A model generated the notes under the pieces. It did not search any database. It was not told the origin of the DNA and saw only the letters and a program-made list of their open reading frames with translations. The position numbers and the translations under genes were made by a program. Of a DNA stretch of 64,000 bases, positions 8,761 through 53,511 are shown one piece after another. How positions within the stretch are numbered: position 1 is the first letter of the stretch; every line of letters begins with the position of its first letter. Origin of the DNA: a virus; the IMG/VR virus record IMGVR_UViG_3300042382_000102, positions 16,336 through 80,335 of that record. One strand, written 5' to 3'.

Positions 8761-8784
8761 GATCTCTCTTTAGCGTCCCCTGGT
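8761..8784 (-). promoter_or_regulatory. Phage RNA polymerase promoter (tail genes)
   Basis: Minus strand reads ACC AGGGGACGCTAAAGAGAGATC. Its end CTAAAGAGAGA resembles the T3 promoter end CTAAAGGGAGA, and AGGGGACGCTA resembles SP6 AGGTGACACTA. By T3 analogy the first transcribed base would be the G at about 8768. The same core occurs between genes at 26031, 26643 and 49607. It would drive the chaperones, tail completion and tape measure genes. Confidence 0.8.
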
Positions 8785-8814
8785 AAATGGACTAGAAACT
8801 AGCCCAAATTGTCA

Positions 8815-10640: not shown

Positions 10641-11735
10641 TTAAGCGTGGAGAATAGGTAGAATACCTAAGTTCAATGCACTCATCTTACGTGCCCATGA
10701 ACCAGCAGTTGCAAAAGCAGTGTTGGTAGCAAAAGCGTTAGTAGCGCCAGCCCAGTCGTAACCCATTGGATGTACAACGAAGCCATAACGATACCAGATA
10801 GATGTAGAACCACCACCAGTGTAGGAAGCAGCAGAGCGGTCAACTTCAACAGGTGTAGGAACAGCAATATTTGTAAAGCTGATAGCGCCTGGCTTGCAAA
10901 TGAATGTAGTCTTAGTAGAACGATCATTTACGTTAGCAGAAGCTGAGAGGTCACCTTGAGCAACACGGCTGAGGATCAAACGGAACTTACCACCGAATAC
11001 GGTTTGGAATGTTAGGTTACCATCAGTAACTGTAGTTACGTCTACTAAGTTAGCAGCACGTAATTCAGCTAAAACTTCAGGTGAAGTGATCATGTACATG
11101 AAGTCAGGCTCATAGTCTTTGAATGCCATACCAAGAGCTTGGAATAGACGTTGACCACGGGCAGCACCAATAGCGGTAGCATCAAATAGCTTACGCTGAT
11201 CAGAAGCAGAAGTAGCAGCTGCGGTACCGAATACACCAGCAGCGTTGATGTCTACGAAGTTACCAACAGTAGAACCATCAGCGTCTGTGTCATAGCCAAC
11301 AATACCAGCACCACGAGAAACTTCATAAGCAGCTACACCTTTGAGTGTAGATACGATAGAGTCAGACTCGTCTTGGCTACGAACTTCAGAGAAGTCACGA
11401 GCGATTTTAGAGAGACCGTCTTGTTGAGAAACGATTTGCTGGAGGTTAACTTGTTGTGAACCGAATGTACGGACTGTCTTGATGTAGTCAGCAATTTCAG
11501 TTGACACATCAGTGTAGTTGCCTTCATTAGCGCTAGATAAGCTAGCAACGTTAATGTTGGCAGCTAGAGGTTTGTACCAGCGCATTTGACCAATGAAGCT
11601 CTCGCCTGTTGGGTCAATACGGGCATCAGTACCAACGATACCAGTGCTGTTAAGCTTCTTGGCGTTTGTGTACATTTCATCAGCATATGCAGAAATAGCA
11701 ATAGCTACGTTTTGGAACATTGTATGATTAATCAT
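10641..11735 (-). CDS. Major capsid protein
   Basis: 364 residues of HK97-fold style: an N-terminal arm, then MRWYKPLAANINVASL, a spine-helix region with DESDSIVSTLKGVAAYEVSRG, and a C-terminal GYDWAGATN...WARKMSALNLGILPILHA. Length and placement directly after the scaffold gene fit a major capsid protein. AGGAG precedes the ATG. The gene uses more GC-rich codons than its neighbours, as expected for a highly expressed gene. Confidence 0.9.
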   Translation of the reverse strand: MINHTMFQNVAIAISAYADEMYTNAKKLNSTGIVGTDARIDPTGESFIGQMRWYKPLAANINVASLSSANEGNYTDVSTEIADYIKTVRTFGSQQVNLQQIVSQQDGLSKIARDFSEVRSQDESDSIVSTLKGVAAYEVSRGAGIVGYDTDADGSTVGNFVDINAAGVFGTAAATSASDQRKLFDATAIGAARGQRLFQALGMAFKDYEPDFMYMITSPEVLAELRAANLVDVTTVTDGNLTFQTVFGGKFRLILSRVAQGDLSASANVNDRSTKTTFICKPGAISFTNIAVPTPVEVDRSAASYTGGGSTSIWYRYGFVVHPMGYDWAGATNAFATNTAFATAGSWARKMSALNLGILPILHA

Positions 11736-11755: not shown

Positions 11756-12451
11756 TTAAAGTGTGAAGTTACCGAGTTTACCACCTGCAGCAAGTGCTAA
11801 CACTTCTTCAGTAGTCATATCAGTAATCTTCTTATTGGGATCGAGTTTGGGAGTACCGTTCATATTGCTACCACCACCCCCTGAATTAGATTTAGGTTTA
11901 AATAGGAAAGAATTATCTTCATTCTTTACGTATTGTCCTACAAAATCCTTGATTGATACACCAGATTTGTGAATCCATGCACCAGTTTCTGGATCTTGGA
12001 TGAGTTGATCGATAATATCACGATAGGCCATTTGGCCAGATCGCTCATTACGGAAATCAAGACTGGTTAATGCATTACGAACTGCACCATCACGGGTGAG
12101 TTCAGTTACTTTACCTTCGGCTAACGCAAGCTTTTCAGTGAGTTCTGCGAGCTTCATCTCAGCAACTTCTTTATGCTTACCTTCATCCTCTAAAGCTTTC
12201 ATCTTACGTTGTTTAGCATCATCTTCAAGACGAACACGCTCTTTAACAGCATTGTCACGTTCTTGATAAGCTTTATCTAAACTTTGTTTGATTTTAGAAA
12301 GACGCTCTTCAACCATACGATTGATCATGTCTTCTGTATCTTTATTGTTAGTACCTGCACCTGGATCTCCAACCTGATCGGCTTGAAACTCTGGGTTTAA
12401 TGTGGTACCATCATCGAGGAACTCTTTGTTTCCGAACTTATCTACTTTCAT
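11756..12451 (-). CDS. Capsid scaffolding protein
   Basis: 231 residues with a highly charged central coiled coil (about residues 45-120, rich in K/E/Q/R), a Gly-rich linker SGGGGSNMNG and a short C-terminal helix TTEEVLALAAGGKLG, the usual design of phage scaffolds that bind capsid subunits through the C-terminus. It lies between the minor head fusion gene and the capsid gene. Confidence 0.85.
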   Translation of the reverse strand: MKVDKFGNKEFLDDGTTLNPEFQADQVGDPGAGTNNKDTEDMINRMVEERLSKIKQSLDKAYQERDNAVKERVRLEDDAKQRKMKALEDEGKHKEVAEMKLAELTEKLALAEGKVTELTRDGAVRNALTSLDFRNERSGQMAYRDIIDQLIQDPETGAWIHKSGVSIKDFVGQYVKNEDNSFLFKPKSNSGGGGSNMNGTPKLDPNKKITDMTTEEVLALAAGGKLGNFTL

Positions 12452-12517: not shown

Positions 12518-15500
12518 TTACGGTCCAATACCATACCAATCCATACCTTTAGGTATAGGAGCGAGTATCTCTTTTCTCGTAATCTTGTTTTTGGGATTTA
12601 GTAAGCCATCCTCAATAGCTTTTTGGCGAAGCTTATTGTAAGTCTCGTTAGACATACCTTCAGCTTTTAATGCCAGTAATGTTTTCTCTATTGTGTTACC
12701 TTCAAGAGCATCCGCATAGATTTCTCTAAGCGCATACTTGGACTTTGCTGCTTGTCCAATGTTGGTGAAGAAAGCATCATGAATCGTAGCGGTTTCAATA
12801 CCATTTTTACGACCCCATAAATGAAATCTTCTTACAATAGTAGCATCGTTCATGTGGTTACCATTAACCCCCATGCCAATACCTGCCCTCATCAGGCTTG
12901 ATTTTCCTAGAAGTGAAGCATCTTCTGCTCGATCTTCGTAAATGTTACGGACCATCCTATTAGCTTCTTTGTCATAGAACTCAATGCTAGTTTGGATTTT
13001 AGGTCTGTATCTCTGGTATAAAGTCTTACCATCAAATGTTACCCAAGGTACATCAACCTTCTGAGTTTCATCAACGTAAGCTTTAGCAGCTTCTTTCCAG
13101 AATTGTACGAACTTTTGAGTTACTGGTGCTCTCTCAGCTAGTCTTCGAGACATAATCTCAGAGACTGCTTTGAAGTCTTGAGGTCCAATTAGACCCCTAC
13201 GAGCATTCATTAACTTATCGACAAACGCTTCTACGTCTGGGTGAGAATCACGAGCATGTGCTAAAAGTTCTTGCCCCACAGGGGTTTCACCTTCAACAAC
13301 CTCATTCAACTCACGCTTTAATTGTTTCAAACCAAAGACAACATTTTCAGCACCTAGCTTATCTGCCTCTTTGATTTTTCCATCTATAATATTTGTTACA
13401 CCACGAAGTTCTTCACGAGTAACAACAGTATATCCTTTTAACTCTAATACTGAAGCAAATTTAGCCTCAATATTAGCCGCCTGTGTTGCTTTACCAGCAC
13501 CATAGAAAGAAACCATGTTCTGAGCTTTAGCAGCTTTCTGGAGATCAGTCCATTGAACATTAGCATCTCTTAACCCTTGTATCTTTTGAAACTCTGGATC
13601 AGACACTGTATCCATAGCAACTAAGTCATACAAACGATTCTTTTGGAGTGTAGGTAACACATTTGAGTTGATTGAAATGTCTCTATCGCCTGTACTCAAA
13701 CCGATAATCTGAGCACCAGAGGATGAGGCATCATTCTCAATCATTAATTTTGTTTTGTATTCTGCTAATTTATTTACATTAGTAAAATCACCATTTACAG
13801 CTTTATGCGCACGAGCGTATTCTATTGCTAATCGACTAATCTTTGGAACTTCCTCTGCTTCAGTAGCACGGATAATAGGATGCTCTAGGTATTCCCTAAT
13901 CCTTCTATCTCGTTGAGTAGTTTCCATCATTAACCTACCAAGGCTTAGAATTTCTTTTTCATTTCTTAAAAAGATTTCCATTCTACCAGATTGTGTTAAA
14001 GCTTCTGTAGCAGGTCCAAGCATAGACCCAGTTTGAATCATTAACTCTCGTAGAATCTCAGGAGTCATATCTTCAGGTTTTGCACTATTAAGAAATGGTC
14101 TAACCACTTCACCACCAGTTGGTGTTAGGAATCCTTGATAGTATACACGTCCACGACCATCAATATTAGCGACAACACTAAAAGGTTTACCAGTATCTCT
14201 GTGATACTTAACCGTCTGCATAAAACTGTAACCTTGATCTCCACGAGTCAAAATAAGTTTTCTAAAATCATTTAAGTCATCGTACTTCTTTACGTTCCCA
14301 CGGGGATCTCTAAAGCGAACTAAGTCTTCCATGAATCCAGCATACTCGTTATCAACCTCATATTGAACTGACATTGTATGATTAAGCATATCAGCAAAAT
14401 CATTGTCAATAAGAATTTTATCGTAATTAGCATTAGCCCTGCGAGTAATAATCGGAATACCTGTATTATTGCCTCTAGCATCAAAATAAGTCTTAGCTCC
14501 AGAACGAACATACAGCTTGTCTCTTGGAGAATTAATACCAATACGTTTTGCTAGCAATGCACTACGATTAGCTCTCTGTAAGTTTAACATATCTTTGTTT
14601 AAGATCTGTACTTCACGACTAACTGTATCTCTCCAAGGACCACTTGCACGACCTGTTTCTAGGTCAACAACTGATCTCCTAGTCTTACCTCTCATGACCA
14701 CACGAATGTAGCCTTTGTCTTTTAAGGCAGTAAGAATTTGGGAACCATCAGCATGATAGTCTTGTAATGTAGGTTTAAAGAACGGGAACTCTGGGACATT
14801 CCAAGATTCTCTCAATGTCTTTCCTACATTAATAGCTAATGAGTCATAGTCAGTAGACTTACCATCAGCAACTACAGTTAAAACTTTAGATAGGGCATCA
14901 ATAGCCTTCTTGTCGTTAAGACCACCCTCAACTAATTGATTTAAATAATTTTGTCTTTGTTTACCAAATAGAAACTCTAAGTCTACTATTCTTCGATAGT
15001 CTTCTCTTCTGTTTCTTAAAAATTCATCAACTAATCTTTCAGTAGGCGCTTTATCTTTAAAAAATAGTTTAGCACCAGGAATATTATCCTCTAAGTATTT
15101 AACTATTTTCTTTTTAAAAACATCAATACCAATTCTAGGAGTACCTTTAAACCATGTGTATAGTGGAGTTCTTCCAGTATAATACAAGCTTCTGGCTAGA
15201 GGTCTACCTTCAGTAGTAGCCCAATTACGAACATATCTTTGATCATCTATATTCTTTTGAATGATTTCATCAAAGGTATAATACTTACCAAATATTTGTA
15301 CTTTAGCAGGTTCTCCAGCAACTCCATATGAGTCAAATTGTGATGATCGTGCTCTTGATCTACGATCTAGAATACGACTAGTGTTAACTACAGAATACTG
15401 CATTTCACCACGGGCAACATTCATGAAGTTTACCCAAGGCTGTTTATCATTGTTATATCGTTCAAATACAACACGCAAATTTTCAGCAATAGCAGTCTGT

Positions 15501-16936
15501 TGGTTAACAGAAACAGAATCATCTAGGCTTTCAACGAATTGTTGAATCCAAACTTTTTGTTCTTGGTTTAGAGCCTTAGAGTTTTTAATAAAGTCTAATC
15601 GTTCCTGTAATACACCAAAGTCTGGGTCATACAAAAGAGTAGAACTCTGTTCACCTGTAAAGGGATCAAAGCTATTATTACGTTCATCAAACTCGTTATT
15701 AGCCCTAATCCTAACTGATCGTTTACCTTGTAATGAGGTACCACGATAGTCTACTAGAGATAGTGTTTGTGCAGTATTTTCAGTGTCCGCTATATACATT
15801 GCCTTTAATTGTTTATTGGCCTCTGTATTTTTAATAAGTTCATTAGGTCTAGCTACATTAACAGCAAATAAATTAGATTCAGCTTCTGCTACTGCGGCTT
15901 GCCTAGTTGGAAAGAATGTTGTTCTTGCATTATCAAGTTTTCTTAATGCTGCAATACTTAATTGTTGACCCTTAGCGGTAGTAAATGCTTTAACGTCAAG
16001 AACACCTTTTTGTAGTAATCCTGCACGTTCTTCACTACCTAAATGTTTAACTTGTACCATCATAGGCTGACGCTTAAGCCATGTACCATAAGTTTCTACT
16101 GGGGGTAAGCTACCATCTAAAATATTCTCAGATGTTTCCTTAAGTTTATTTACTTTAACTCTTGATTCAGCTTCCTCAGAAGCTTTTAATAGTTCTTCTT
16201 TGTTCTTTAAAACAGGAACCATAGAACTACGGCAATTCCAGTGTAAGGGAGGTCTAAAACGAAGATCATCAATCTTATATACTTGACCATCATGGTGAGC
16301 ACAGATCTTTGATGTTCTATTATCTAACACAGCAGTAAATCTATAACCTTTTAGTAATTCGTTATTACGATCCATTACTAGATTAATTGCTTTAGCTTGC
16401 GTATTCGTAATAGCAGTTCTAACTAATACCTTAGCTTGCACTTCAGTCATAGTTGTAGTCTTAATTACATCAGCAATAATTTCTTTAACAGGTTTATTGT
16501 CTGCTAATCCTGACTTAATTTTTCCATCAATCCTAGCTAACTCAGTTGTACCAATACTGTCAAAGTGATCTTTTAAACTCTTTGAGGCAGTAATATTAGG
16601 TCCAATCAGGAGAGGAATAGCATCACTACCTCTAGGTTTTTGTACCCTAAAGAAAGATCCAGCACTTCTCTCTAGATTATTAGCATGGAAGCTTACAGAG
16701 GCATCTGCATAATCACTAACTGAATTTTTAGTAATCATGTGTAACTCTTTAGTTGCTCGAGTTACTTCTGGTTTAACATCAGCCTTAATATTTTTAGATA
16801 ATAAAATCTTTAATCTTTTCTGATGCCTACGGATGCCTCTAGAAACATTGGTTGATGTCTCTGCTTCATATAGCCTAGTGTCAGCTAAGTGTTGTACAAT
16901 ACGATCATAAACTTCCGTATTAATTGGTGTTGGCAT
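12518..16936 (-). CDS. MuF-type minor head protein fused to a single-subunit (T7/N4-like) RNA polymerase
   Basis: 1472 residues. Residues about 130-245 are a MuF/SPP1 gp7-like minor head domain: MTEVQAKVLVRTAITNT, then FTAVLDNRTSKICAHHDG and RPPLHWNCRSSMVPV (C212, C235). The C-terminal part carries single-subunit RNA polymerase motifs: DGRGRVYYQG at 926-935 (T7 DWRGRVY), motif A with D1069 (DASSSGAQ; T7 DGSCSGIQ, D537), motif B with K1137 and Y1145-G1146 spaced exactly as T7 K631 and Y639-G640, a T7-like VPWVTFDG segment at 1296-1303, and motif C HDAF with H1386/D1387 (T7 H811/D812). The T7 R627 position is Q1133 or K1134. MuF proteins sit inside the head near the portal and can be ejected, so this is probably a virion RNA polymerase for early genes. 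It follows the portal region and precedes the scaffold gene. The roughly 500 residues between the domains are unassigned. Confidence 0.9.
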   Translation of the reverse strand: MPTPINTEVYDRIVQHLADTRLYEAETSTNVSRGIRRHQKRLKILLSKNIKADVKPEVTRATKELHMITKNSVSDYADASVSFHANNLERSAGSFFRVQKPRGSDAIPLLIGPNITASKSLKDHFDSIGTTELARIDGKIKSGLADNKPVKEIIADVIKTTTMTEVQAKVLVRTAITNTQAKAINLVMDRNNELLKGYRFTAVLDNRTSKICAHHDGQVYKIDDLRFRPPLHWNCRSSMVPVLKNKEELLKASEEAESRVKVNKLKETSENILDGSLPPVETYGTWLKRQPMMVQVKHLGSEERAGLLQKGVLDVKAFTTAKGQQLSIAALRKLDNARTTFFPTRQAAVAEAESNLFAVNVARPNELIKNTEANKQLKAMYIADTENTAQTLSLVDYRGTSLQGKRSVRIRANNEFDERNNSFDPFTGEQSSTLLYDPDFGVLQERLDFIKNSKALNQEQKVWIQQFVESLDDSVSVNQQTAIAENLRVVFERYNNDKQPWVNFMNVARGEMQYSVVNTSRILDRRSRARSSQFDSYGVAGEPAKVQIFGKYYTFDEIIQKNIDDQRYVRNWATTEGRPLARSLYYTGRTPLYTWFKGTPRIGIDVFKKKIVKYLEDNIPGAKLFFKDKAPTERLVDEFLRNRREDYRRIVDLEFLFGKQRQNYLNQLVEGGLNDKKAIDALSKVLTVVADGKSTDYDSLAINVGKTLRESWNVPEFPFFKPTLQDYHADGSQILTALKDKGYIRVVMRGKTRRSVVDLETGRASGPWRDTVSREVQILNKDMLNLQRANRSALLAKRIGINSPRDKLYVRSGAKTYFDARGNNTGIPIITRRANANYDKILIDNDFADMLNHTMSVQYEVDNEYAGFMEDLVRFRDPRGNVKKYDDLNDFRKLILTRGDQGYSFMQTVKYHRDTGKPFSVVANIDGRGRVYYQGFLTPTGGEVVRPFLNSAKPEDMTPEILRELMIQTGSMLGPATEALTQSGRMEIFLRNEKEILSLGRLMMETTQRDRRIREYLEHPIIRATEAEEVPKISRLAIEYARAHKAVNGDFTNVNKLAEYKTKLMIENDASSSGAQIIGLSTGDRDISINSNVLPTLQKNRLYDLVAMDTVSDPEFQKIQGLRDANVQWTDLQKAAKAQNMVSFYGAGKATQAANIEAKFASVLELKGYTVVTREELRGVTNIIDGKIKEADKLGAENVVFGLKQLKRELNEVVEGETPVGQELLAHARDSHPDVEAFVDKLMNARRGLIGPQDFKAVSEIMSRRLAERAPVTQKFVQFWKEAAKAYVDETQKVDVPWVTFDGKTLYQRYRPKIQTSIEFYDKEANRMVRNIYEDRAEDASLLGKSSLMRAGIGMGVNGNHMNDATIVRRFHLWGRKNGIETATIHDAFFTNIGQAAKSKYALREIYADALEGNTIEKTLLALKAEGMSNETYNKLRQKAIEDGLLNPKNKITRKEILAPIPKGMDWYGIGP

Positions 16937-17228: not shown

Positions 17229-18842
17229 TTAAGCTCCTGAATTATTATCTGTACGATTGTTGTCATTCATATCAGATACATTTGAGTCAATTCTAGTTGC
17301 CATAGTATCTACAAGAGGATCACTCTGAATCTCAGCTATACCTTCTTCATCGTTATACTCAGCAGGGAGTACATCGTTAAACTTAGCAATAGAGATAAAT
17401 GTAGAACGTGGAATAATACCTTGCTGGTACCATTCTGTAACTAGTCTCATCCAGTCAGCACCTACAGGTGTAGGATTAAAGTCAGCACTTAATGTAAACT
17501 TAATGTCTGTTGGAAGAACATCAACATTATATTTCCACTTAAGCATAACTGTAATAATCTGTCTCATTGTCTCTGAGATACGAGTATTAAGCATGCCTAA
17601 TTGAGCAGTCTGAGCAGCATTACGGATTTCTAAGCTTACGCCTGACTCACCTGAAGAACCTTCTGGCGATAACATGCGGATTCCCATACGAGCCATCTCT
17701 TCGATAGTAGCAGCAATACTTGCCTCCATATCTTTTAGAGCACCTGTAGGTGTATCTAGTGCTTTGATATCATCTCCTGCACGAAGTTTAATCCATGAGC
17801 CTAAACCAGCAGCTACAATATCCTCAAACTCTTCATCAGTCATATCTGACATGACTACTGGAGTGTATGTTGCAGCGCCATAGAGTAAATGATTACGTCT
17901 ACTAATCTTGTTGTATAGTGCAATCTCACGATCAATTAATGATTGTAGAATTGGTTCAACAGGATCAATTTGACCATTTAATGGGTAGGCAGGAATGAAA
18001 TTCATTCTCTCACCATTCATTAATGGTATTTCTGTGCGTGTTTTAGTCCATGCTGCATTAGCGTTATCTGTCTGATACTTAGAAGTAACATTACCATTAA
18101 TAACGTTAACAGACTCATTAGTGTCTCGTGTGTAAGTATCCACAACAAGTAAGCCTGCATCATCTAGGTAGTAGTGAGTAACTGTGTCTACATAGTCTGG
18201 ATGGAATTGATTTTTAGTATAGTCTTCCATATAATAACGGAAGAGTAAACTTGTTAATACTTGTTTGTTAGTATTACGGTCTTGACCTCTACGCCAGTTA
18301 ATAATATTCTCTGCTTGAATGAGCATAACATATGGTGATAGAGCCTTAGCTTCTTCTACTGTTAATGCGTCTGGGTTAGCAACTGTAGGATAGTCTACTA
18401 AGCACCAAGCTCTGGATGACTGTAATTCTTCCCAAATAGCAGCATCTAAAAATCCATGTAGTGAGGTACCATCAGAGCCAAAAGAAGTACGAATCCAATC
18501 TTCAGTTCCTTCTGGGAACATATTATCAGGTAATTCAATAGCCGCTTGTTTACGTAGTAGTCCACCCACTAAAACTTTAGCATATTGTGCTGTTAGACCT
18601 GGAAGTTCACCTTCAGCACGATAAAAATTGTACTGTTGAGAACTCATTGTAGGAGAAAATGGTAACAATAGGTTACTAAAATTTACTGGATCAATTGTAT
18701 CATCATATGCTCGTGCATGTGTCTGTCCATTTAGAACAGCTCTGGATCGTTCCCAGAGTGGCCGCATAGATTCGTATGCAGCATTAGGATCCCCAAGGCT
18801 TTTTGTCTTAGCCTTTGATGGGGTCGTTGTTAGGTTTGCCAT
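17229..18842 (-). CDS. Portal protein (DUF4055-like)
   Basis: 537 residues. The stretches FYRAEGELPGLTAQYAKVLVGGL, SSRAWCLVDYP and SPYVMLIQAENIINWRRG are typical of the DUF4055 class of portal proteins; helices with RMLSPEGSSGESGVSLEIRNAAQ follow. The portal dodecamer is the DNA gate of the head. It is flanked by PhoH upstream and the MuF fusion downstream, fitting portal-MuF-scaffold-capsid order. Confidence 0.88.
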   Translation of the reverse strand: MANLTTTPSKAKTKSLGDPNAAYESMRPLWERSRAVLNGQTHARAYDDTIDPVNFSNLLLPFSPTMSSQQYNFYRAEGELPGLTAQYAKVLVGGLLRKQAAIELPDNMFPEGTEDWIRTSFGSDGTSLHGFLDAAIWEELQSSRAWCLVDYPTVANPDALTVEEAKALSPYVMLIQAENIINWRRGQDRNTNKQVLTSLLFRYYMEDYTKNQFHPDYVDTVTHYYLDDAGLLVVDTYTRDTNESVNVINGNVTSKYQTDNANAAWTKTRTEIPLMNGERMNFIPAYPLNGQIDPVEPILQSLIDREIALYNKISRRNHLLYGAATYTPVVMSDMTDEEFEDIVAAGLGSWIKLRAGDDIKALDTPTGALKDMEASIAATIEEMARMGIRMLSPEGSSGESGVSLEIRNAAQTAQLGMLNTRISETMRQIITVMLKWKYNVDVLPTDIKFTLSADFNPTPVGADWMRLVTEWYQQGIIPRSTFISIAKFNDVLPAEYNDEEGIAEIQSDPLVDTMATRIDSNVSDMNDNNRTDNNSGA

Positions 18843-26030: not shown

Positions 26031-26055
26031 GACTCTCTCTTTAGCGTCACCTGGT
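26031..26055 (-). promoter_or_regulatory. Phage RNA polymerase promoter (terminase, lysis and head genes)
   Basis: Minus strand ACCAGGTGACGCTAAAGAGA, with GAGTC following. It differs from the commonest form only in AGGTGAC instead of AGGGGAC, which brings it even closer to SP6 AGGTGACACTA. Predicted first base is the G at about 26039. It lies directly downstream of the hydrolase terminator and upstream of the leader hairpin. Confidence 0.82.
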
Positions 26056-26064
26056 CTTTTTTGA

Positions 26065-26155: not shown

Positions 26156-26629
26156 TCATGCATAAAACACATGATTGCCTATTGTTACAGTTTTAGTAAC
26201 TTTACTAGCCCACTTTGGTAGGACATAGTGAGCATGATAGAAGATAGAACCATTTGTAGGATCTTTTAGCTTCCCTTGAACGTAGTTAGATGCAATAGCA
26301 TGAGCTAACTCGTATCTCTTCCTGTCTTTAGGTGAGTGGTTCTTTAGTAGTTTAACCCAAGAGAACTGATTGGGTTGATAGACTACTTGGCAAATAGAGG
26401 TTGGATACCCCTGTGATAAGAGTCTATTGATCGTGACAGCTGCAACAGCTATCTGACCCTTTATTGACTCTCCCCTAGCTTCATGGTAAATGTTATGAGC
26501 TAGGCAGTCTACTTCTTTTTTAGGTTGAAACCCTAGATTAAAGAGTTTCGTGTTAATTGAATCTAGTGCTGTGACAGTAGATAATTGTAGAGGAAAAAGA
26601 AGTAGCATTATTAGTGCTAACTTGTTCAT
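26156..26629 (-). CDS. Exported SleB-type cell wall hydrolase
   Basis: 157 residues. A signal peptide (MNKLALIMLLLFPLQLSTVTA) precedes a Hydrolase_2/SleB domain: CLAHNIYHEARGES with the probable catalytic Glu, GQIAVAAVTINRL, a Cys near CQVVYQPNQFSW, and IFYHAHYV. The family cuts peptidoglycan. It is separate from the GH19 endolysin and has its own promoter (26643) and terminator (26065-26142), so it is an independently controlled single-gene unit. Could aid lysis or block superinfection. Confidence 0.9.
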   Translation of the reverse strand: MNKLALIMLLLFPLQLSTVTALDSINTKLFNLGFQPKKEVDCLAHNIYHEARGESIKGQIAVAAVTINRLLSQGYPTSICQVVYQPNQFSWVKLLKNHSPKDRKRYELAHAIASNYVQGKLKDPTNGSIFYHAHYVLPKWASKVTKTVTIGNHVFYA

Positions 26630-26642
26630 TTTGATCTCTCTT

Positions 26643-26662
26643 TCTCTTTAGCGTCCCCTGGT
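26643..26662 (-). promoter_or_regulatory. Phage RNA polymerase promoter (cell-wall hydrolase)
   Basis: Minus strand ACCAGGGGACGCTAAAGAGA, then AAGAGAGATC. The core is identical to that at 8761-8784. Predicted start at the G near 26646, giving a short leader to the hydrolase ATG at 26629. Placed between the 26667 gene and the hydrolase gene. Confidence 0.82.
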
Positions 26663-26666
26663 AGTT

Positions 26667-36902: not shown

Positions 36903-37885
36903 TACCAATCCCAGTTACCATTCATACCATTAACACTATACTCAGTAACACGCTTCTCAAAGAAGTTATCGTGAGATACACCTGATAAAACCCAGTCAAG
37001 CCAAGTTAAAGGATTTTCTTTTACTCGGAATACTGGTTTTAAACCAAGCTGAATAAGGCGACGATCTGTGATAAATCTAATATAATTTCTTACATCTTCT
37101 TTAGTTAATCCTTCAATTTTATTACCAGTAAAGGCAAGATCAATAAACCTATCTTCTAACTCAACAGCTTCTTTAGCCATTTGATAAATTTTAGATTTAA
37201 ACTCATCATTGATAATACGAGGATGTTCTTCACAATACTTACGGAATAATGCCGCACCGCCCTCTACATGTACTGTTTCATCTCGAATAGACCATTCAAC
37301 TACAGTTCCCATACCTTTCATTTTACCGAAACGTTGGAAGTTAAGTAACATAACAAATGAAGCGAATAAAGCAACACCTTCATTAAATACACCTTTGGCT
37401 AAAGTTAAAGCTACGCCAGAATGTGTTCCTGTATCATTAGATTGCATAAAGTCAATCTTATCTGCCATCTCTTTGTATTCTAAAAATCGATGATATTCTT
37501 CATCAGGCAAACCTAGGGTATCATTCAATAGTGCATAAGCTCTTTGATGAGTACCTTCACGACCAGCAAAGGAACCTAGCATAACACGAACTTCATTGTT
37601 CTTAAATTTAGGTATTAAATAGTCATAATAGTTTTGACCTACTTGAACATCACCTTGAGTAAATAATCTTAAGATATGAGTAATAAACTCTTTTTCCTGA
37701 TCATTTAACTTTAGTTTCCAATCTGATACATCTTCAGATAAATCAGCTTCATCTTCAGTCCAATGAATTTCTTCATGTTTCTTTGTTAAATCTACAGCCC
37801 AATCATGAAAGAAAGGTTTATAAGTTTTATTAAAAGTGGTTAATGTTGATGCAGGAATATTATCCTTCACAAGCTTTGCATTCAT
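36902..37885 (-). CDS. nrdB: Ribonucleotide reductase class I beta subunit
   Basis: 327 residues. Ferritin-like di-iron ligands are visible in the expected order: E in W.EDEADLSEDV.DW context, EGTHQRAY, NEGVALFASF and DETVHVEGG. It makes the tyrosyl (or metal-based) radical for NrdA. The C-terminus NGMNGNWDW would bind NrdA. Start overlaps the nrdA end by 26 bases. Confidence 0.94.
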   Translation of the reverse strand: MNAKLVKDNIPASTLTTFNKTYKPFFHDWAVDLTKKHEEIHWTEDEADLSEDVSDWKLKLNDQEKEFITHILRLFTQGDVQVGQNYYDYLIPKFKNNEVRVMLGSFAGREGTHQRAYALLNDTLGLPDEEYHRFLEYKEMADKIDFMQSNDTGTHSGVALTLAKGVFNEGVALFASFVMLLNFQRFGKMKGMGTVVEWSIRDETVHVEGGAALFRKYCEEHPRIINDEFKSKIYQMAKEAVELEDRFIDLAFTGNKIEGLTKEDVRNYIRFITDRRLIQLGLKPVFRVKENPLTWLDWVLSGVSHDNFFEKRVTEYSVNGMNGNWDW

Positions 37886-39863
37886 TGTCTTCTGCCTCTA
37901 CTGCGTTTGTTAATGTTTGGAAATGAGCATATAGTTTATCAAATCCACCGATATACTCTCCGTCTAAATAAATTTGTGGTAACGATCTAACATCATCACG
38001 ACCAGTAACTTCAGCCGCTGTTTTGCCTAAAGCTACAATATCAATATAGTCAAATGGAATACTCTTTGAATTTAACAAAGCTTTAGCCATTTCACAATTT
38101 GGACAATTTGGTTTACCATATATGATTGTTGTCTTCTCATATTTTAATTTATCTTCTTTAACTTTTTCTGAGACATTTTCAGCACGAACTTTAGCTTCTG
38201 TACGGAGATAATACAAACCTTTCAACCCAGATTCCCAAGCTAAAATATGTGCATCTTTAACATATTTCTTTTCTGCTCCTGCAGGGAAAAATAAGTTAAC
38301 AGATTGGCCTTGACAAACATATTTTTGTCTATCTGAAGCATGTTTAATAACCCAACTTTGATCTAACTCAAAACTAGTTTTAAACACATCTTTTATACTA
38401 TCTTCTAAGAATGGCAAATGTTGCACAGATCCACCACTAGTAATAATATTAGCCCATACTTCATTTGTATTATGTTGAATCTTATCTAAATACTTTTCAA
38501 GATATTTGTTTTTAACTAAGAAAGATCCTGCACGAGTACGATGTGTATATGCATTAGCCTTATTAGGTTCAATACTAGGAGAAGTACTTAACAGAATACC
38601 AGAAGAAGCATTAGGGGCTACTGCTAGTAAATGTGAATGCCTTACCATTACTGGAGACATATCTGGAGCAGGTCCACGACTTTCAGCTAAAGCGCCAGAG
38701 ATCTCTTTTGCTTGATTTTTAATATAATCAAATATTTCAATGTTTAGCTTGGATGCATCGTTACTTTCAAAAGGTATCATTCTACTCTGTAACAAGTTAT
38801 GAAAACCCATTGCTCCAACACCAATAGATCTTTCTTGAGTAGCGCTATATACTGCCCTACTAAGACTGTCTGGAGCATTCTCAATAAAATATTCTAGTAC
38901 GTTGTCAAGCATTGTTACTAAATCTTTGACCATTGATGTATGTTTCCATTGGTCATAGTGTTCTAGATTAACAGAGCTTAAACAACATACTGCTGTACGA
39001 TCTTCATTCGTAGGTAAATGAATTTCATTACAGAGGTTGCTACCATGTACTTTTAAACCTTTTTCCTTTAATTGAATAGGTAATGCGTCATTAACAGTAT
39101 CAATGAAGTTAAGGTAAGGCTCACCTGTACGGAAGCGAGTTTCCAATAACTTGATAAATACTTTTCTAGCATCAAGGGATTCGCCTGTTGGTCCTTTCTT
39201 TGGATCAACAAGCTCATATGTTCTACCTTCTTTGACAGCTTCCATGAAATTATCAGTGATATTAACAGCGTTATGTAAGTTAAGACATTTACGATTGTTA
39301 TCACCTGTGGGAACACGAATACTAATAAATTCAAGAATATCAGGATGATCAATATCGAGATATGCAGCATAAGAGCCCTTTCTAGTTTTACCCTGCCTAT
39401 AAGCAGTCATATCAGCATCAATTGTGCTTAAGAAAGGTATAGGCCCAGGAGCAATGTCAGATACACTACGGATGTCAGACCAATGACCTCCGACCCCTCC
39501 GCCCATGACGGATAACCAACGAATTTCAGAACTATGATCAATAAGACCAGAGACAGTATCAGGAACATAAGTTAAAAAGCAAGAGATTGGCATTCCTTTA
39601 CCTTTACCATTAATATCGGGAGCATTCGATAATACAGGTGAGGCAAACATAAACCATTTGTTTGAGATATAGTCATACAGTCTTTGAGCTAACTCTAAAT
39701 CTGTTTGACCTTTAAATGTGCTCCAAGCACGACAAGCTCTAGCATAAACTTCCTGTGGAGATTTTTCATTATCTTTTGCATAGAACTCTAGTACCATGTC
39801 AAAGGCATAATCTGTTAAAAGTTTATCTTTATCTAAATCAATTTCAATATCGTAGTATTTCAT
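37860..39863 (-). CDS. nrdA: Ribonucleotide reductase class I alpha subunit with inserted glutaredoxin domain
   Basis: 667 residues. NrdA core: SCFLTYVPDTVSGLIDHSSE, LSVMGGGVGGHWSDIRSV, NLCNEIHLPT with TAVCCLSSVNLEHYD, and APNASSGILLSTSPSIEPN. From about residue 577 to 651 there is a glutaredoxin domain (TTIIYGKPNCPNCEMAKALL, active site C587-P-N-C590; SLPQIYLDGEYIGGFD). The protein then ends in ECKACEG, the Cys pair (C662, C665) of the usual NrdA C-terminal redox tail. The glutaredoxin thus sits between the catalytic core and the tail it would reduce, giving a self-contained reductant. No ATP-cone is evident at the N-terminus. Confidence 0.94.
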   Translation of the reverse strand: MKYYDIEIDLDKDKLLTDYAFDMVLEFYAKDNEKSPQEVYARACRAWSTFKGQTDLELAQRLYDYISNKWFMFASPVLSNAPDINGKGKGMPISCFLTYVPDTVSGLIDHSSEIRWLSVMGGGVGGHWSDIRSVSDIAPGPIPFLSTIDADMTAYRQGKTRKGSYAAYLDIDHPDILEFISIRVPTGDNNRKCLNLHNAVNITDNFMEAVKEGRTYELVDPKKGPTGESLDARKVFIKLLETRFRTGEPYLNFIDTVNDALPIQLKEKGLKVHGSNLCNEIHLPTNEDRTAVCCLSSVNLEHYDQWKHTSMVKDLVTMLDNVLEYFIENAPDSLSRAVYSATQERSIGVGAMGFHNLLQSRMIPFESNDASKLNIEIFDYIKNQAKEISGALAESRGPAPDMSPVMVRHSHLLAVAPNASSGILLSTSPSIEPNKANAYTHRTRAGSFLVKNKYLEKYLDKIQHNTNEVWANIITSGGSVQHLPFLEDSIKDVFKTSFELDQSWVIKHASDRQKYVCQGQSVNLFFPAGAEKKYVKDAHILAWESGLKGLYYLRTEAKVRAENVSEKVKEDKLKYEKTTIIYGKPNCPNCEMAKALLNSKSIPFDYIDIVALGKTAAEVTGRDDVRSLPQIYLDGEYIGGFDKLYAHFQTLTNAVEAEDNECKACEG

Positions 39864-49539: not shown

Positions 49540-49606
49540 AGGTTTTAGTTTCCTTAATTATAATTTCATTTTTAATATTTAGTATACAATTGAATTTGCA
49601 TACGTT

Positions 49607-49627
49607 AGTGCTTTAGCGTACCCTGGT
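49607..49627 (-). promoter_or_regulatory. Phage RNA polymerase promoter (replication genes)
   Basis: Minus strand ACCAGGGTACGCTAAAGCAC. The core matches the other sites except AGGGTAC for AGGGGAC and GC in place of GAG after +1. Predicted start near 49611. It lies 6 bases after the RNA polymerase stop codon and drives the ssDNA-binding protein and the replication block. Confidence 0.78.
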
Positions 49628-49632
49628 AAAAC

Positions 49633-51801
49633 TTAACAAAAAGCATAATCAGAATACACAATCTGACCGACATCTAGATTACCCCTTTCAGGAATAAGGT
49701 CTTTACAGTCGAGTTCAGCAAGCAATTTTTCAAGAGGTTTACTTTTGTAAAACTCAACAAACTGTTCTCTTACTCTATAAAACAAATCATCCATTCGTCC
49801 TGGTAAAGTACCAAAAGAATCATGAACAACAGTCATTTCATAAGGAGCAGATACAACAGTCATTGTTAGGTGAGCAGCATCAAAGCTATGAACAATGTTT
49901 GGTGCAGCACCTGTTCTTTGGGAATCTTTATTAATAGTTGTTTCTTCCCAAGTTTGAAGTTGAATCTTTAATTCTTCTTCTCCGTACTTCAACTTAGTAC
50001 GTACAATAGATGGCTTACGATATGCCTGTACAACTGGGAAGTTAGTTACAGGTGTAGTCCATTTTAGAAACACTTCTTTTTCATTAGATCTTTGTGCAAG
50101 ATCCTGAAACATACGCAACATAGTGGCTGGTCCTTTGAGTTTCTCATAACAAGTCTCAAATACCAGATCACCTAATAGCGCACCCCAGAGGTGTTCCTTG
50201 TCACGAAGATACTCAGACATATCACGAGTGTCATCAATAATTTGTTGACCCATGCCGTATGCAGTACCACCGTAACCGAGTGTCATTACATTTCTCTTTA
50301 CTACTTTCCGTTGATCTTTAGGGTTATCGATTTTAAGCCAGTAAACAGGAAATAATTTTTCTCGTATTGCTCTATTTTGATTACGCCATTCTTGGGCAGC
50401 AGCATAGGCTAATGCTTTTTGCTCTGTCTTTTCAGGTGCATCAAAATAAGCTTTTTGTAGTTCTTTAGCTTTACCATAAACAGAGTCAAACTGACCTCTT
50501 TCTTCAGGTGTTAGCTTGTCTGCCATCTCTTGTAAATGTTCCCATACATATTTTGCAATATACATGTAGACATCACCAGGAAGCTCTTGTGGAACTAAAT
50601 TTACTAATGGAGCAATATCTTCATCCTGAGACATAGCTACTAGATGTTGAACTCCGTTATTAGAACCATCAATGTAAACAGGAAGTGAACATTCATATTC
50701 TTCTAACTTATTTCCTTCCATTAGCCACTCCTTAATCTTCTTTAACTCATAACAAGCAGCTAAGAAAGAAAATGGGGCATCAGTATCAATCCAACCTTGG
50801 TTAATAGTTGGCTTCTCTGCATAAGATAAAAATAAATTAATATTCTCATCTACAAACTCTGCTCTTTGTTTTAGTGTAACTTTGTCATTACCGAAAGAGT
50901 TAGAGGTATGTACTTTTAACCAGAATAAACCATTTTCTCCAAGTGGTGCTGGTTGATCTAATAAGAGTAAACCTTTAGCATTATCACTAGATTGCTCATG
51001 CAAGAATGCTGTATTCACATATACACGACCACGAAAATCGAAGTTATACATATGATAAAAGGTATTATCTAAATGGTTTGAAGCTAGTTGTTCAATAGCC
51101 TCAGCTTCAATCAGCAGAGATTTCTTTTTCTCTTCATCAATTTCAGAATGTAATTTAAATGGACTAACTGAATTTTCCTTATGAAGAAAATGTTGATAAA
51201 CTTTAAATACATCTTTGTTAATGCGCCATCCTGTAGCTTGTAATTTATTTAGAACATTGTAAAGTATTTCTTTATCATTATTCTTAAATTGTGCTAATGC
51301 TGTAGAGTGACCTTTCTTAATAATAGGAACACCTAAATTATTATGAGCAGAATCCCATGGGCATGGGGCTTCTCTCATGGGAAAGATATCAACTTTAGTT
51401 TGATCAATTAGACTCCATAAGTCTTTAATTGATTTCCAATCTTTAACTTGAAAGAAATAAGCTTGGTACTTACTCTTCTTGCCATTCTTGTATGTATACT
51501 TTAATTTAAAAGATAAAACATTACATTCAATATAAGCAATACACACAAACCAGCCGACTTGTGCATCAAAGATTGTGTCATTAGGTAATTCAAGAGTTTG
51601 TCGAATTCTCCTGCCAATAGTAGCAATAATGTCTACTAAAGTACCTTGTCTCTCAAGTCCACGTAATACATGAGGATATGAGATGTCTATTAGTGTCTTT
51701 GGATCTACATCTTTCAAGTAGTGAGTATAGATATTTCTATCTGAACGCAACGTAGCTTGACGTAGCTTAATATCATTAACTAATTTATCTAGAACGGTCA
51801 T
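49633..51801 (-). CDS. T7-like single-subunit RNA polymerase
   Basis: 722 residues, shorter than T7 (883), mostly through a reduced N-terminal domain. Motifs: NFDFRGRVY (D255), motif A DGSNNGVQH with D378, motif B R498, K502, Y510-G511 (KVVKRNVMTLGYG), motif C H660-D661 (VVHDSFGT) and the C-terminal foot ending DYAFC, like T7 FAFA. It should read the T3/SP6-like promoters found in this window. It lies between the early small-gene region and the first of those promoters. Confidence 0.96.
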   Translation of the reverse strand: MTVLDKLVNDIKLRQATLRSDRNIYTHYLKDVDPKTLIDISYPHVLRGLERQGTLVDIIATIGRRIRQTLELPNDTIFDAQVGWFVCIAYIECNVLSFKLKYTYKNGKKSKYQAYFFQVKDWKSIKDLWSLIDQTKVDIFPMREAPCPWDSAHNNLGVPIIKKGHSTALAQFKNNDKEILYNVLNKLQATGWRINKDVFKVYQHFLHKENSVSPFKLHSEIDEEKKKSLLIEAEAIEQLASNHLDNTFYHMYNFDFRGRVYVNTAFLHEQSSDNAKGLLLLDQPAPLGENGLFWLKVHTSNSFGNDKVTLKQRAEFVDENINLFLSYAEKPTINQGWIDTDAPFSFLAACYELKKIKEWLMEGNKLEEYECSLPVYIDGSNNGVQHLVAMSQDEDIAPLVNLVPQELPGDVYMYIAKYVWEHLQEMADKLTPEERGQFDSVYGKAKELQKAYFDAPEKTEQKALAYAAAQEWRNQNRAIREKLFPVYWLKIDNPKDQRKVVKRNVMTLGYGGTAYGMGQQIIDDTRDMSEYLRDKEHLWGALLGDLVFETCYEKLKGPATMLRMFQDLAQRSNEKEVFLKWTTPVTNFPVVQAYRKPSIVRTKLKYGEEELKIQLQTWEETTINKDSQRTGAAPNIVHSFDAAHLTMTVVSAPYEMTVVHDSFGTLPGRMDDLFYRVREQFVEFYKSKPLEKLLAELDCKDLIPERGNLDVGQIVYSDYAFC

Positions 51802-51930
51802 TTAGGCAAATTCGAAAGCTGTTTGATGATTTGATTGTGTTGTTTCCTTGTTGTTTAACTTTTTATAGAGCCAGATAATAAAGGTCTCTAGTAAAAGAAC
51901 TAAAACTTCAAATAGGATTGCTTTTGTCAT
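51802..51930 (-). CDS. Small membrane peptide before the RNA polymerase gene
   Basis: 42 residues from MTKAILFEVLVLLLETFIIW, a single membrane helix, then a polar tail NNKETTQSNHQTAFEFA. It abuts the RNA polymerase start. A longer frame to 51984 would read through the hairpin at 51974-51996 and is less likely. Confidence 0.5.
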   Translation of the reverse strand: MTKAILFEVLVLLLETFIIWLYKKLNNKETTQSNHQTAFEFA

Positions 51931-51973
51931 TATTATTATTATATCCTGTTTTTGATTAAAAAATTCAGAAGAA

Positions 51974-51996
51974 CCCCAAGGCATCTAGCCTCGGGG
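51974..51996 (-). terminator. Hairpin upstream of the RNA polymerase gene
   Basis: Arms CCCC-A-AGGC and GCCT-C-GGGG pair around a 5-base loop with one mismatch. On the minus strand it is followed by TTCTTCTGAATTTTTT, a broken T-run; on the plus strand by ATCTTTTT. It directly follows the stop of the 52003 gene. It may be a terminator or attenuator. A hairpin-type promoter for the virion RNA polymerase is a speculative alternative. Confidence 0.5.
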
Positions 51997-52002
51997 ATCT
52001 TT

Positions 52003-52212
52003 TTAGGAAGCTAATTTAGCGTCCATTGGTAGTTCAGTAGCCTCTACTTCAACTATACCATTTTTTCTATCTTGATACCATGTAACTACTTTATTAGCCA
52101 CATAGAAAGATAAACCGATAACTAAAACTTCCTTAGCAAAATTCAAGGTAAGAAGTGCAGCTAAGAAGCCAAGCAACCAACCAAGAAAGTAACCAACTGT
52201 TGTTAAAGCCAT
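52003..52212 (-). CDS. Small two-helix membrane protein
   Basis: 69 residues: TVGYFLGWLLGFLAALLTL and VLVIGLSFYVANKVVTW hydrophobic segments, then an acidic tail ending MDAKLAS. The final codons coincide with a promoter-like sequence (52011-52030). Function unknown. Confidence 0.6.
   Translation of the reverse strand: MALTTVGYFLGWLLGFLAALLTLNFAKEVLVIGLSFYVANKVVTWYQDRKNGIVEVEATELPMDAKLAS
52011..52030 (-). promoter_or_regulatory. Possible degenerate phage promoter inside a coding end
   Basis: Minus strand ACCAATGGACGCTAAATTAG against the consensus ACCAGGGGACGCTAAAGAGA: four differences, with GGACGCTAAA intact. It overlaps the last codons of the 52003 gene and lies about 210 bases before the RNA polymerase start. 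If active it would let the RNA polymerase amplify its own gene. Chance resemblance is not excluded. Confidence 0.4.
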
Positions 52213-52224
52213 TTTAATACTCCA

Positions 52225-52359
52225 TTAAATAAAAGGTTTTGGAAAGGGACCACTGAATAAAATTAAAAAGATATAAGCAATTAGTACTATAAAAAATAAT
52301 GGTCTAGCCACTACAAATAGTACAAACATAATAAGCAAAAATATTACAAAGAGGCTCAT
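52225..52359 (-). CDS. Very hydrophobic small protein
   Basis: 44 residues, MSLFVIFLLIMFVLFVVARP then LFFIVLIAYIFLILFSGPFP; almost entirely membrane. TAATG overlap with the next gene upstream. Function unknown. Confidence 0.55.
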   Translation of the reverse strand: MSLFVIFLLIMFVLFVVARPLFFIVLIAYIFLILFSGPFPKPFI

Positions 52360-52592
52360 TACTTCCTCATTGTATTAACATGGCCTACTAGCTTAAATCT
52401 TTGGTTTATGTGAGCTAACGGATTAACTTTCCATAAATCTAGTTCTTGACCAACTTTATCAAAGAAGTCTAAACTATGTGGTTCATAACGAACTTTGATG
52501 TAATTAACGATCTCTTTGCTGACTTGGTAGACATAACCTTCCTCATCAGCAATTCGAACACTAGAATACACAGGTGGACATTTAGTACACAT
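52359..52592 (-). CDS. Small unknown protein
   Basis: 77 residues from MCTKCPPVYSSVRIADEEGY (GGAG six bases upstream). One CxxC pair at the N-terminus. Function unknown. Confidence 0.55.
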   Translation of the reverse strand: MCTKCPPVYSSVRIADEEGYVYQVSKEIVNYIKVRYEPHSLDFFDKVGQELDLWKVNPLAHINQRFKLVGHVNTMRK

Positions 52593-52593
52593 T

Positions 52594-52848
52594 TTAAACT
52601 CCAAGTTTTTTATCTACAAAAACTAAATCTTCAATTGCTTTAAAGAGCCTACTAAAGTCTTCAGCAGATTCTGTAATAACCGAAGCTACAGTTTCTCCAA
52701 CCATATATGCTGATTTAACATCATACAATGAAGGAGAAACAACTTTCTGTAAGAAGTCATCATAGACAGTTACTTGAACTGAATCAAATAAATTCTCTTG
52801 AATAGCTTCAATAGTATAGTCACCTGATTTTAGAGTCAATCTTGGCAT
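52594..52848 (-). CDS. Small unknown protein
   Basis: 84 residues, beta-rich N-terminus (PRLTLKSGDYTIEAIQENLF) and helical C-terminus. No motif recognised. Confidence 0.55.
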   Translation of the reverse strand: MPRLTLKSGDYTIEAIQENLFDSVQVTVYDDFLQKVVSPSLYDVKSAYMVGETVASVITESAEDFSRLFKAIEDLVFVDKKLGV

Positions 52849-52850
52849 TT

Positions 52851-53144
52851 TTAATCCTCAATTTTCTGATCATATATAGAAGTGAATTCAATAATAGAAC
52901 CATCGAGTTCAACTTCAGTACACATTCTTTCAATTAAAAACTTAGAGTTACTTGTTGCATAGATTGCAGGTATACCTTTAGTATCATTTGAGAATATATA
53001 AGTTAATCCAAACTCTTCTAACGATTCAATTACCTCTTGTGCAGTAACTCCAAAGTTATCCCCATAAAGTGGATTCAACAATAAGTACTTAGGCATAGAT
53101 TTTTCCTTATCAAGCTCTTTAATTCGATTTGAATTGCTACTCAT
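52851..53144 (-). CDS. Small unknown protein
   Basis: 97 residues. NPLYGDNFGVTAQEVIESLE and YIFSNDTKGIPAIYATSNSK suggest an alpha/beta fold. No family recognised. Confidence 0.52.
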   Translation of the reverse strand: MSSNSNRIKELDKEKSMPKYLLLNPLYGDNFGVTAQEVIESLEEFGLTYIFSNDTKGIPAIYATSNSKFLIERMCTEVELDGSIIEFTSIYDQKIED

Positions 53145-53159
53145 TTACAATTACCTTTA

Positions 53160-53270
53160 TTAATAAACTAGCGCATCAAGACCATGTAATACCAAAGCAC
53201 ATAGGCCTAAGCCAATAGCAATAGCAGTAACAACATCCATAAATGTTTCAGATTCAAAAAACTTTTTCAT
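53160..53270 (-). CDS. Tiny membrane peptide
   Basis: 36 residues: MKKFFESETFMDVVTAIAIG then LGLCALVLHGLDALVY. One membrane helix. Function unknown. Confidence 0.48.
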   Translation of the reverse strand: MKKFFESETFMDVVTAIAIGLGLCALVLHGLDALVY

Positions 53271-53397: not shown

Positions 53398-53491
53398 ATA
53401 ACCTTTCAAGTTAATAGAGATTAGAGTCCTATCTTTTAAGATATTCTTCTATTATAGATACATCATTTTTCTCACTTTTTTTGATAAAAAA

Positions 53492-53511
53492 GGCCACCCT
53501 TTCGAGTGACC
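53492..53511 (-). terminator. Terminator downstream of the bilin genes
   Basis: Arms GGCCACCC (53492-53499) and GAGTGACC (53504-53511) form 8 pairs closed by GAAA on the minus strand, followed by TTTTTTATC. On the plus strand it is followed by GTTTTT, so it can act in both directions. It closes the heme oxygenase - bilin reductase segment. Confidence 0.8.

Follow-up and report, generated by a model that had tools for sequence, protein, structure and literature searches.

The fusion gene and the structural block

The window, the whole stretch of viral DNA analysed here (64,000 nucleotides), carries within its structural block a gene in which a MuF-type minor head domain and a single-subunit RNA polymerase (RNAP) are encoded in one frame. 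The features of this block are as follows.

17229..18842, minus strand: portal protein gene (position as the annotated DSS3_VP1 portal; Pfam DUF4055, E 1.5e-9)
12518..16936, minus strand: MuF-RNA polymerase fusion gene, one open frame of 1472 codons
15890..16783, minus strand: MuF / SPP1 gp7-type head domain, residues 52-349 (PHROG 241, TIGR01641)
12521..14539, minus strand: single-subunit RNA polymerase part, about residues 800-1472 (Pfam RNA_pol, fold, profile-profile match)
14147..14161, minus strand: DxxGR motif DGRGR, residues 926-930 (T7 DWRGR, R425; alignments)
13730..13732, minus strand: motif A, catalytic D1069 (T7 D537; invariant in alignments)
13499..13528, minus strand: motif B, K1137 to Y1145-G1146 (T7 K631, Y639-G640; alignments)
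12776..12781, minus strand: motif C, H1386-D1387 (T7 H811-D812; alignments)
11756..12451, minus strand: probable scaffold gene, between the MuF and capsid genes as in DSS3_VP1
10641..11735, minus strand: probable major capsid protein gene (position of the annotated DSS3_VP1 major head protein)

The order portal, MuF fusion, scaffold and capsid is the same as in DSS3_VP1; a Pfam search gave no match for either the probable scaffold gene or the probable major capsid gene. The original prediction, made from the sequence alone, had described a 1472-residue frame at 12518-16936 with C212 and C235 in the head domain, the polymerase residues DGRGR (926-930), D1069, K1137, Y1145-G1146 and H1386-D1387, and a K-to-Y spacing equal to that of T7. 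The frame held, on the minus strand, which had not been stated, and so did every residue; the spacing from K631 to Y639 in T7 is also 8 residues.

The joining of the MuF head domain and the polymerase in one frame is real. In all, 89 distinct unbroken fusion proteins were recovered, from many independent assemblies and from the named phages DSS3_VP1 and DSS3_PM1, so that homologues in which the two halves are always separate, a finding that would have refuted the original prediction, were not what was found. All four motif patterns are kept in 86 of the 89, over an identity range down to 30%. MuF and RNA_pol are the only above-cut-off Pfam matches in the protein, and a scan of genome contigs for a prophage origin found no relative.

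The MuF domain matched Pfam Phage_Mu_F (PF04233; E 9.6e-11, 42.9 bits vs a curated cut-off of 29.6), NCBIfam TIGR01641 (phageSPP1_gp7; E 2.1e-16, 60.3 bits vs 39.65) and PHROG 241 (head morphogenesis; E 3e-53), and C212 and C235 are invariant in the aligned fusions. With its domain above the curated cut-off and its gene beside the portal and ahead of the scaffold and capsid genes, the fusion satisfies the sequence and gene-order criteria of the MuF/SPP1 gp7 family. The model of the N-terminal MuF part had no PDB fold match at E < 0.001. Since the gene lies in the structural block, late synthesis is expected, and an early role would require the protein to be brought into the cell. Its location beside the portal and its packaging are inferred from the MuF fusion and the operon position.

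The polymerase part

The polymerase part matched Pfam RNA_pol (E 4.8e-7) and the PHROG RNA polymerase family (E 3e-22), and profile-profile comparison matched it to T7 RNAP (E 1e-11). The catalytic residues are invariant in two alignments of 15 and 48 members. When residues 400-1472 were modelled with AlphaFold2 and searched with Foldseek, the best PDB match was T7 RNAP (E 1.8e-19, probability 1.00), with TM scores by target of up to 0.58, and N4-type virion RNAPs were also among the matches in viral models. Sequence similarity in the fold alignments with T7 RNAP was low, at 13-15%. A fold in which D1069 and D1387 do not meet in a palm would have refuted the original prediction; the predicted overall fold is T7-class, a result that rests on the fold match and not on the geometry of these two residues. 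Profile comparison with the N4 virion RNAP gave no detectable match, and neither did T7 against the single N4 sequence, hence this comparison is uninformative. Based on its motifs and its predicted fold, the polymerase part is assigned to the T7-class RNAPs, with RNA synthesis inferred.

The dN/dS of this part is about 0.1 (range 0.07-0.12). Furthermore, 17 group I introns were found in the loci of ten relatives, several of them, in distant relatives, within motif B or directly after the HD of motif C, a placement typical of active-site codons that are needed and conserved. In some relatives an in-frame insert of ~150 residues is present near residues 1047-1052, and a Pfam search for an intein domain in it found none.

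The early region and two promoter-like elements

The second region of interest contains a further polymerase gene and is flanked by two different conserved elements, E and M.

53492..53511, minus strand: intrinsic terminator closing the block upstream of E, conserved in relatives
53445..53480, minus strand: early element E, AAAAAGTGAGAAAAATGATGTATCTATAATAGAAGA, 36 bp, candidate MuF-RNAP promoter
51802..53270, minus strand: small genes of the early region, after E and before the second RNAP
49633..51801, minus strand: second, conventional T7-like RNAP (non-virion RNAP, P0002; Pfam RNA_pol, E 1.3e-80; PHROG 414, E 4.5e-131)
49604..49630, minus strand: motif M (T3-like promoter), immediately after the second RNAP gene and ahead of the gene at 49039-49539; place conserved in relatives
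26639..26665, minus strand: motif M, preceding the gene at 26156-26629
26032..26058, minus strand: motif M, ahead of the terminase and structural block
8761..8787, minus strand: motif M, within the tail gene block

The conventional polymerase had been predicted at 49633-51801, and this held, on the minus strand. E directly follows the terminator and precedes the operon that leads to this gene, the last one of an early region of ~3.7 kb. It is a single strong site in the window's genome (position weight matrix score 51.7 bits vs at most 6.3 in shuffles); close relatives have one or two copies in the corresponding position, and DSS3_VP1 has two at the equivalent place. Its 36 bp are nearly invariant between phages whose proteins diverge to 63-65% identity. 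Among ~2.9 million viral contigs a degenerate E pattern had 33 matches; one or both polymerases are carried by 27 of these 33 contigs, the remaining six being pieces of at most about 10 kb. A search of the EBPR-type branch for E gave nothing convincing (its flanks are incomplete), and Kolga, with an unfused MuF protein and one RNAP, is without E. Two E-bearing contigs of 41-46 kb, whose completeness is not established, have the second RNAP and lack the MuF-RNAP.

E contains TATAAT, a perfect sigma-70 -10 box. The six bases that follow, GAAGAA, are those with which SP6-type promoters begin. Neither a sigma-70 -35 box nor an extended -10 was found, and a promoter scan did not list E. Folding of E gave no hairpin in the window or in DSS3_VP1 and clear hairpins in only two of the nine copies folded. 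An N4-style hairpin promoter was considered and rejected, as no hairpin is conserved.

M differs from E in sequence, and its first copy lies just behind the second RNAP gene, so that the genome holds two distinct conserved promoter-like elements. M is the candidate promoter class of the second RNAP and E would be read by the MuF-RNAP, both assignments being inferred from position only.

Comparison with known systems

The N4 virion RNAP (Schitoviridae gp50) resembles the present system in that a T7-class single-subunit polymerase resides in a structural gene and a second phage RNAP serves later genes. It differs in having 3500 residues, a short-tailed phage and hairpin promoters, whereas the fusion has 1472 residues, a MuF anchor and a long-tailed phage. 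The N4 enzyme also has a metallopeptidase domain, and N4-like virion RNAPs are said to occur only in N4-like phages (PMC5512222); the N4-type criteria, a giant protein of ~3500 residues with a metallopeptidase together with hairpin promoters, are not met by the fusion and E. In P23-45, likewise a long-tailed phage with two promoter classes and an RNAP fused to a virion protein, gp96 joins the RNAP to the tail tape measure protein, and pre-early genes, among them that of a second RNAP, are transcribed by the virion enzyme (PMC10770324). There the RNAPs are two-barrel enzymes on a tape measure, unlike the T7-class enzyme on MuF described here, and the P23-45-type criterion is not met. T7 RNAP and the Autographiviridae share the catalytic motifs, the fold and a promoter directly behind the RNAP gene, here that of the second RNAP. 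T7 starts with the host RNAP and is not known to carry an RNAP in its virion.

Enzymes behind a MuF head domain are known as MuF-effector fusions or polyvalent proteins and are believed to be passed into the cell (Iyer et al. 2017, PMC5512222). The partners listed there include RNase, kinase, RelA/SpoT and PRTase, among others, with no MuF-RNAP in the relevant passages. The original prediction knew of no described MuF-polymerase fusion, and this held within the literature searched, where no description was found; a mention in the DSS3_VP1 description paper, reportedly Rihtman et al. 2021, is not excluded. Virion RNAPs as a class are already known from the giant proteins of N4, the tape-measure fusions of P23-45 and the multisubunit enzymes of phiKZ, and the MuF-borne T7-class enzyme is inferred to be a new form.

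Proposed mechanism and rival explanations

The likely reading is a virion RNAP built on a MuF minor head protein: starting at E, it would lead to production of the second RNAP, to which transcription from M then passes. That the protein is packaged and ejected, makes RNA and recognises E is inferred. The fusion would be produced late from the structural operon, and as the head is assembled its MuF end would put a few copies beside the portal. The protein would leave on infection, together with the DNA or ahead of it, and in the new cell its polymerase would read E and transcribe the ~3.7-kb early operon, at whose end lies the second RNAP gene. The second RNAP may then take over at M, copies of which precede the replication genes and lie within the late blocks. 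The original prediction had likewise inferred a MuF-anchored polymerase, ejected with the DNA, that starts early transcription; this is supported in silico, with packaging, ejection and RNA synthesis still inferred. It had also held that the two polymerases would be redundant unless the fused one acts first. The second RNAP is judged not redundant: E precedes it, the first copy of M follows it immediately, and the fusion belongs to the structural block. Several points weigh against the virion-RNAP reading. To get through a long non-contractile tail the protein would need to be unfolded, and the TATAAT in E leaves the host RNAP not excluded; the lack of a convincing E in the EBPR-type branch and the two E-bearing contigs without a MuF-RNAP also count against it.

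Among the rivals, an unlikely one keeps the fusion as a virion RNAP but leaves the first transcription to the host RNAP, with E a host promoter and the MuF-RNAP having another early job such as pulling the genome in by transcribing the entering DNA. The perfect -10 box speaks for it, as does the T7 layout, in which a host promoter precedes the RNAP gene and phage promoters follow it immediately, the same arrangement as that of E and M. Against it, E is without a -35 or an extended -10, its conservation extends over 36 bp including GAAGAA, far beyond the needs of a host promoter, and the pattern is limited to this phage group. An improbable alternative is that the fusion serves as a second intracellular polymerase, acting late in the same cell (for example transcribing at the portal while heads are assembled or packaged) without being ejected. 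This is consistent with its late-operon position and the absence of ejection data; however, M promoters fitting the second RNAP are already present in the late blocks, in characterised phages MuF proteins form part of the virion, and MuF-borne effectors are believed to reach cells by delivery (PMC5512222). Even less probable is a structural or DNA-binding relic that makes no RNA. It is favoured by the low similarity to T7 RNAP (13-15% in fold alignments) and by the change of DGRGR to DHRAR across much of the EBPR branch, but both catalytic aspartates, the lysine, the Tyr-Gly and the histidine are invariant despite a drop to 30% identity elsewhere, and active-site codons harbour introns. An assembly artefact or chance fusion, for which no supporting point was found, is all but excluded, being ruled out by the 89 distinct unbroken proteins, the independent assemblies and the two named phages.

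Meaning and relatives

Most long-tailed phages are usually assumed to start transcription with the host RNAP. The virion-RNAP reading gives the fusion a likely, though inferred, purpose in a large family of long-tailed phages: a starter enzyme of their own would be brought into the host, and the first genes read independently of the host. The family would offer a compact and common alternative start, for which a candidate promoter is named and whose first product is a second polymerase, and would broaden MuF fusions beyond effectors to a core enzyme of gene expression. A bolder reading, towards which the balance tilts only slightly, is a new virion-RNAP architecture with its own 36-bp promoter class and a host-RNAP-independent start in hundreds of aquatic phages, whose genomes would otherwise be taken to encode a conventional T7-like RNAP and no other. 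The family may also supply a small polymerase whose promoter is distinct.

DSS3_VP1, a sequenced and isolated roseophage, makes the family testable. The "minor head protein-like" products of DSS3_VP1 and DSS3_PM1 are full-length homologues of the fusion at 49% identity, annotated as head protein only; in DSS3_VP1, which infects Ruegeria pomeroyi DSS-3, the product is gp108. In EBPR siphovirus 1, gp47 and gp49, annotated as hypothetical, together form a full-length homologue at about 31% identity. An unannotated group I intron splits the gene within motif B, at the junction of codons 1142 and 1143.

The fusion protein and its predicted fold

The fusion is encoded on the minus strand (12518-16936) by a frame of 1472 aa that begins with ATG; the plus-strand reading of this interval contains many stops. 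The original prediction, which assigned C212 and C235 to a MuF-type head domain and the motifs from DGRGR (926-930) to H1386-D1387 to a single-subunit RNA polymerase, held in that each named residue was found at its claimed position. Head morphogenesis families match residues 52-349 (PHROG 241, E 3e-53; NCBIfam phageSPP1_gp7, E 2.1e-16; Pfam Mu_F, E 9.6e-11), and RNA polymerase families match the C-terminal part (PHROG 414, E 3e-22; Pfam RNA_pol, E 4.8e-7).

Residues 400-1472 were modeled by AlphaFold2 from 48 sequences (mean pLDDT 77, pTM 0.71). In Foldseek the top matches were T7 RNA polymerase structures (E 1.8e-19; TM by target to 0.58), and mitochondrial RNA polymerases came close after them. 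A search of viral models with the same model returned a 1463-aa homologue of 54% identity as the best match, followed by T7-like RNA polymerases and N4-type vRNAPs. The polymerase part is predicted by this model to have the T7-class fold; its active-site geometry was not measured. The model of residues 1-620 (pLDDT 78.5) had no significant match in the PDB. By profile comparison, the fusion polymerase is about equally akin to T7 RNA polymerase (E 1e-11) and to the second RNA polymerase of the window (E 2e-10), a conventional T7-like enzyme.

Distribution and conservation

The same fusion was found in 51 viral loci in one search, and in 48 loci of the EBPR branch, distant relatives resembling EBPR siphovirus 1, at about 30% identity to the window protein. 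A profile search gave at least 561 matching stretches; no relative was found in the bacterial and archaeal genomes searched. Among sequences in hand, 89 distinct stop-free proteins cover both halves, and all four catalytic motif patterns are present in 86 of them, the other three lacking only the DxxGR pattern. Down to about 30% identity, every aligned member keeps D1069, K1137, Y1145-G1146, H1386-D1387 and the final Arg of DxxGR. Residues 801-1472 show a dN/dS of 0.07-0.12 in five pairs, similar to or under that of the MuF part in most of them. In the Pelagibacter phage Kolga and related contigs, the MuF protein is about 600 aa long and lacks the polymerase, and one T7-like RNA polymerase is encoded in addition, which is the unfused state.

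Genome setting, element E and motif M

The virus record of 80,335 bases to which the window belongs has a direct terminal repeat of 230 bases at its ends, and therefore the 80.3-kb record is likely a complete genome. Nearly all genes of the window lie on the minus strand, in the order terminase, portal, fusion, probable scaffold, probable capsid and tail genes, the last including a 2438-aa ORF that we take to be the tape measure. The portal-fusion-(scaffold)-capsid order also occurs in DSS3_VP1, a Naomviridae roseophage, in which the fusion homologue is labelled "head morphogenesis" or "minor head protein-like".

Two promoter-like elements, E and M, were recognized. The early element E, AAAAAGTGAGAAAAATGAYGTATCTATAATGAAGAA, is present in a single copy in the genome of the window (53480-53445), past a terminator and ahead of small genes leading to the second RNA polymerase. 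Across relatives with up to about 35% difference between their polymerases, its 36 bp are nearly invariant. Relatives carry one or two copies (DSS3_VP1 has two, at the equivalent place), more distant genomes retain the core TCTATAATGAAGAA, and Kolga was found to have no E. When the whole viral collection was searched, a degenerate E pattern matched 33 contigs, 27 of which hold the fusion, the second RNA polymerase or both, the remaining six being about 10 kb or less. This shows exclusivity, not cause, because the pattern was built from this phage group. E contains TATAAT but no -35 box and was absent from the sigma-70 sites of a promoter scan. The end of E resembles the start of the SP6 promoter. 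No conserved hairpin was found in E, whereas N4 promoters have one.

Motif M, TTTACCAGGGGACGCTAAAGAGAGA, judged by eye and taken to be T3-like, occurs five times in the genome, always on the coding strand, and relatives keep it behind the second RNA polymerase gene.

Copies of motif M
49630, coding strand, directly behind the second RNA polymerase gene
26665, coding strand
26058, coding strand
8787, coding strand
Fifth copy, outside the window, coding strand

A proposed mechanism of delivery

In the simplest reading, the fusion would be made late from the structural block, docked at the portal by its MuF part, and ejected; it would then transcribe from E, leading to production of the second RNA polymerase, which would take over at M. 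Packaging, ejection, activity and recognition of E are all inferred. In P23-45, experiments showed that an RNA polymerase fused to the tape measure transcribes pre-early genes, among them the gene for a second RNA polymerase (PMC10770324); the proposed scheme shares this logic but is built from different parts. A virion RNA polymerase is of a known kind, and what is new here, with packaging and ejection still inferred, would be the delivery domain. No description of a MuF-RNA polymerase fusion was found in the open-access literature searched; subscription papers, including the description of DSS3_VP1, were outside that scope.

Introns, inserts and neighboring genes

Motif B of EBPR siphovirus 1 is interrupted, exactly between the V1142 and S1143 codons, by an unannotated group I intron that contains an HNH endonuclease gene. 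Another 16 group I introns were found within or right beside the fusion gene in nine more loci. Split sites fall in motif B, just after the HD of motif C, and near 766, 945, 1358 and 1371. In the EBPR branch the gene is an intron hot spot of six or more sites. Group I introns prefer conserved active-site codons of needed genes. Intron-bearing loci of this branch are L054 (15170-15396), L127, L129, L135, L140, L144, L146, L166, L169 and L172. The second T7-like RNA polymerase gene is also in pieces in this branch (genomes G001, G003, G005, G006 and G009), and introns possibly split it too. Some distant relatives (L149, L150, L161, L162, L163, L168 and L170) carry an insert, in frame and about 150 aa long, near window residues 1047-1052, just ahead of motif A; no Pfam domain was found in the two inserts examined.

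Just upstream of E, adjoining genes for heme oxygenase and ferredoxin-dependent bilin reductase (53604-54807, minus strand; Pfam E 1e-21 each) form a pigment cassette resembling the hemO-pcyX/pcyA genes reported for phages of aquatic environments (PMC11480375). A ribonucleotide reductase large subunit (37860-39863, minus strand) has an apparent C-terminal glutaredoxin domain, as read by eye.
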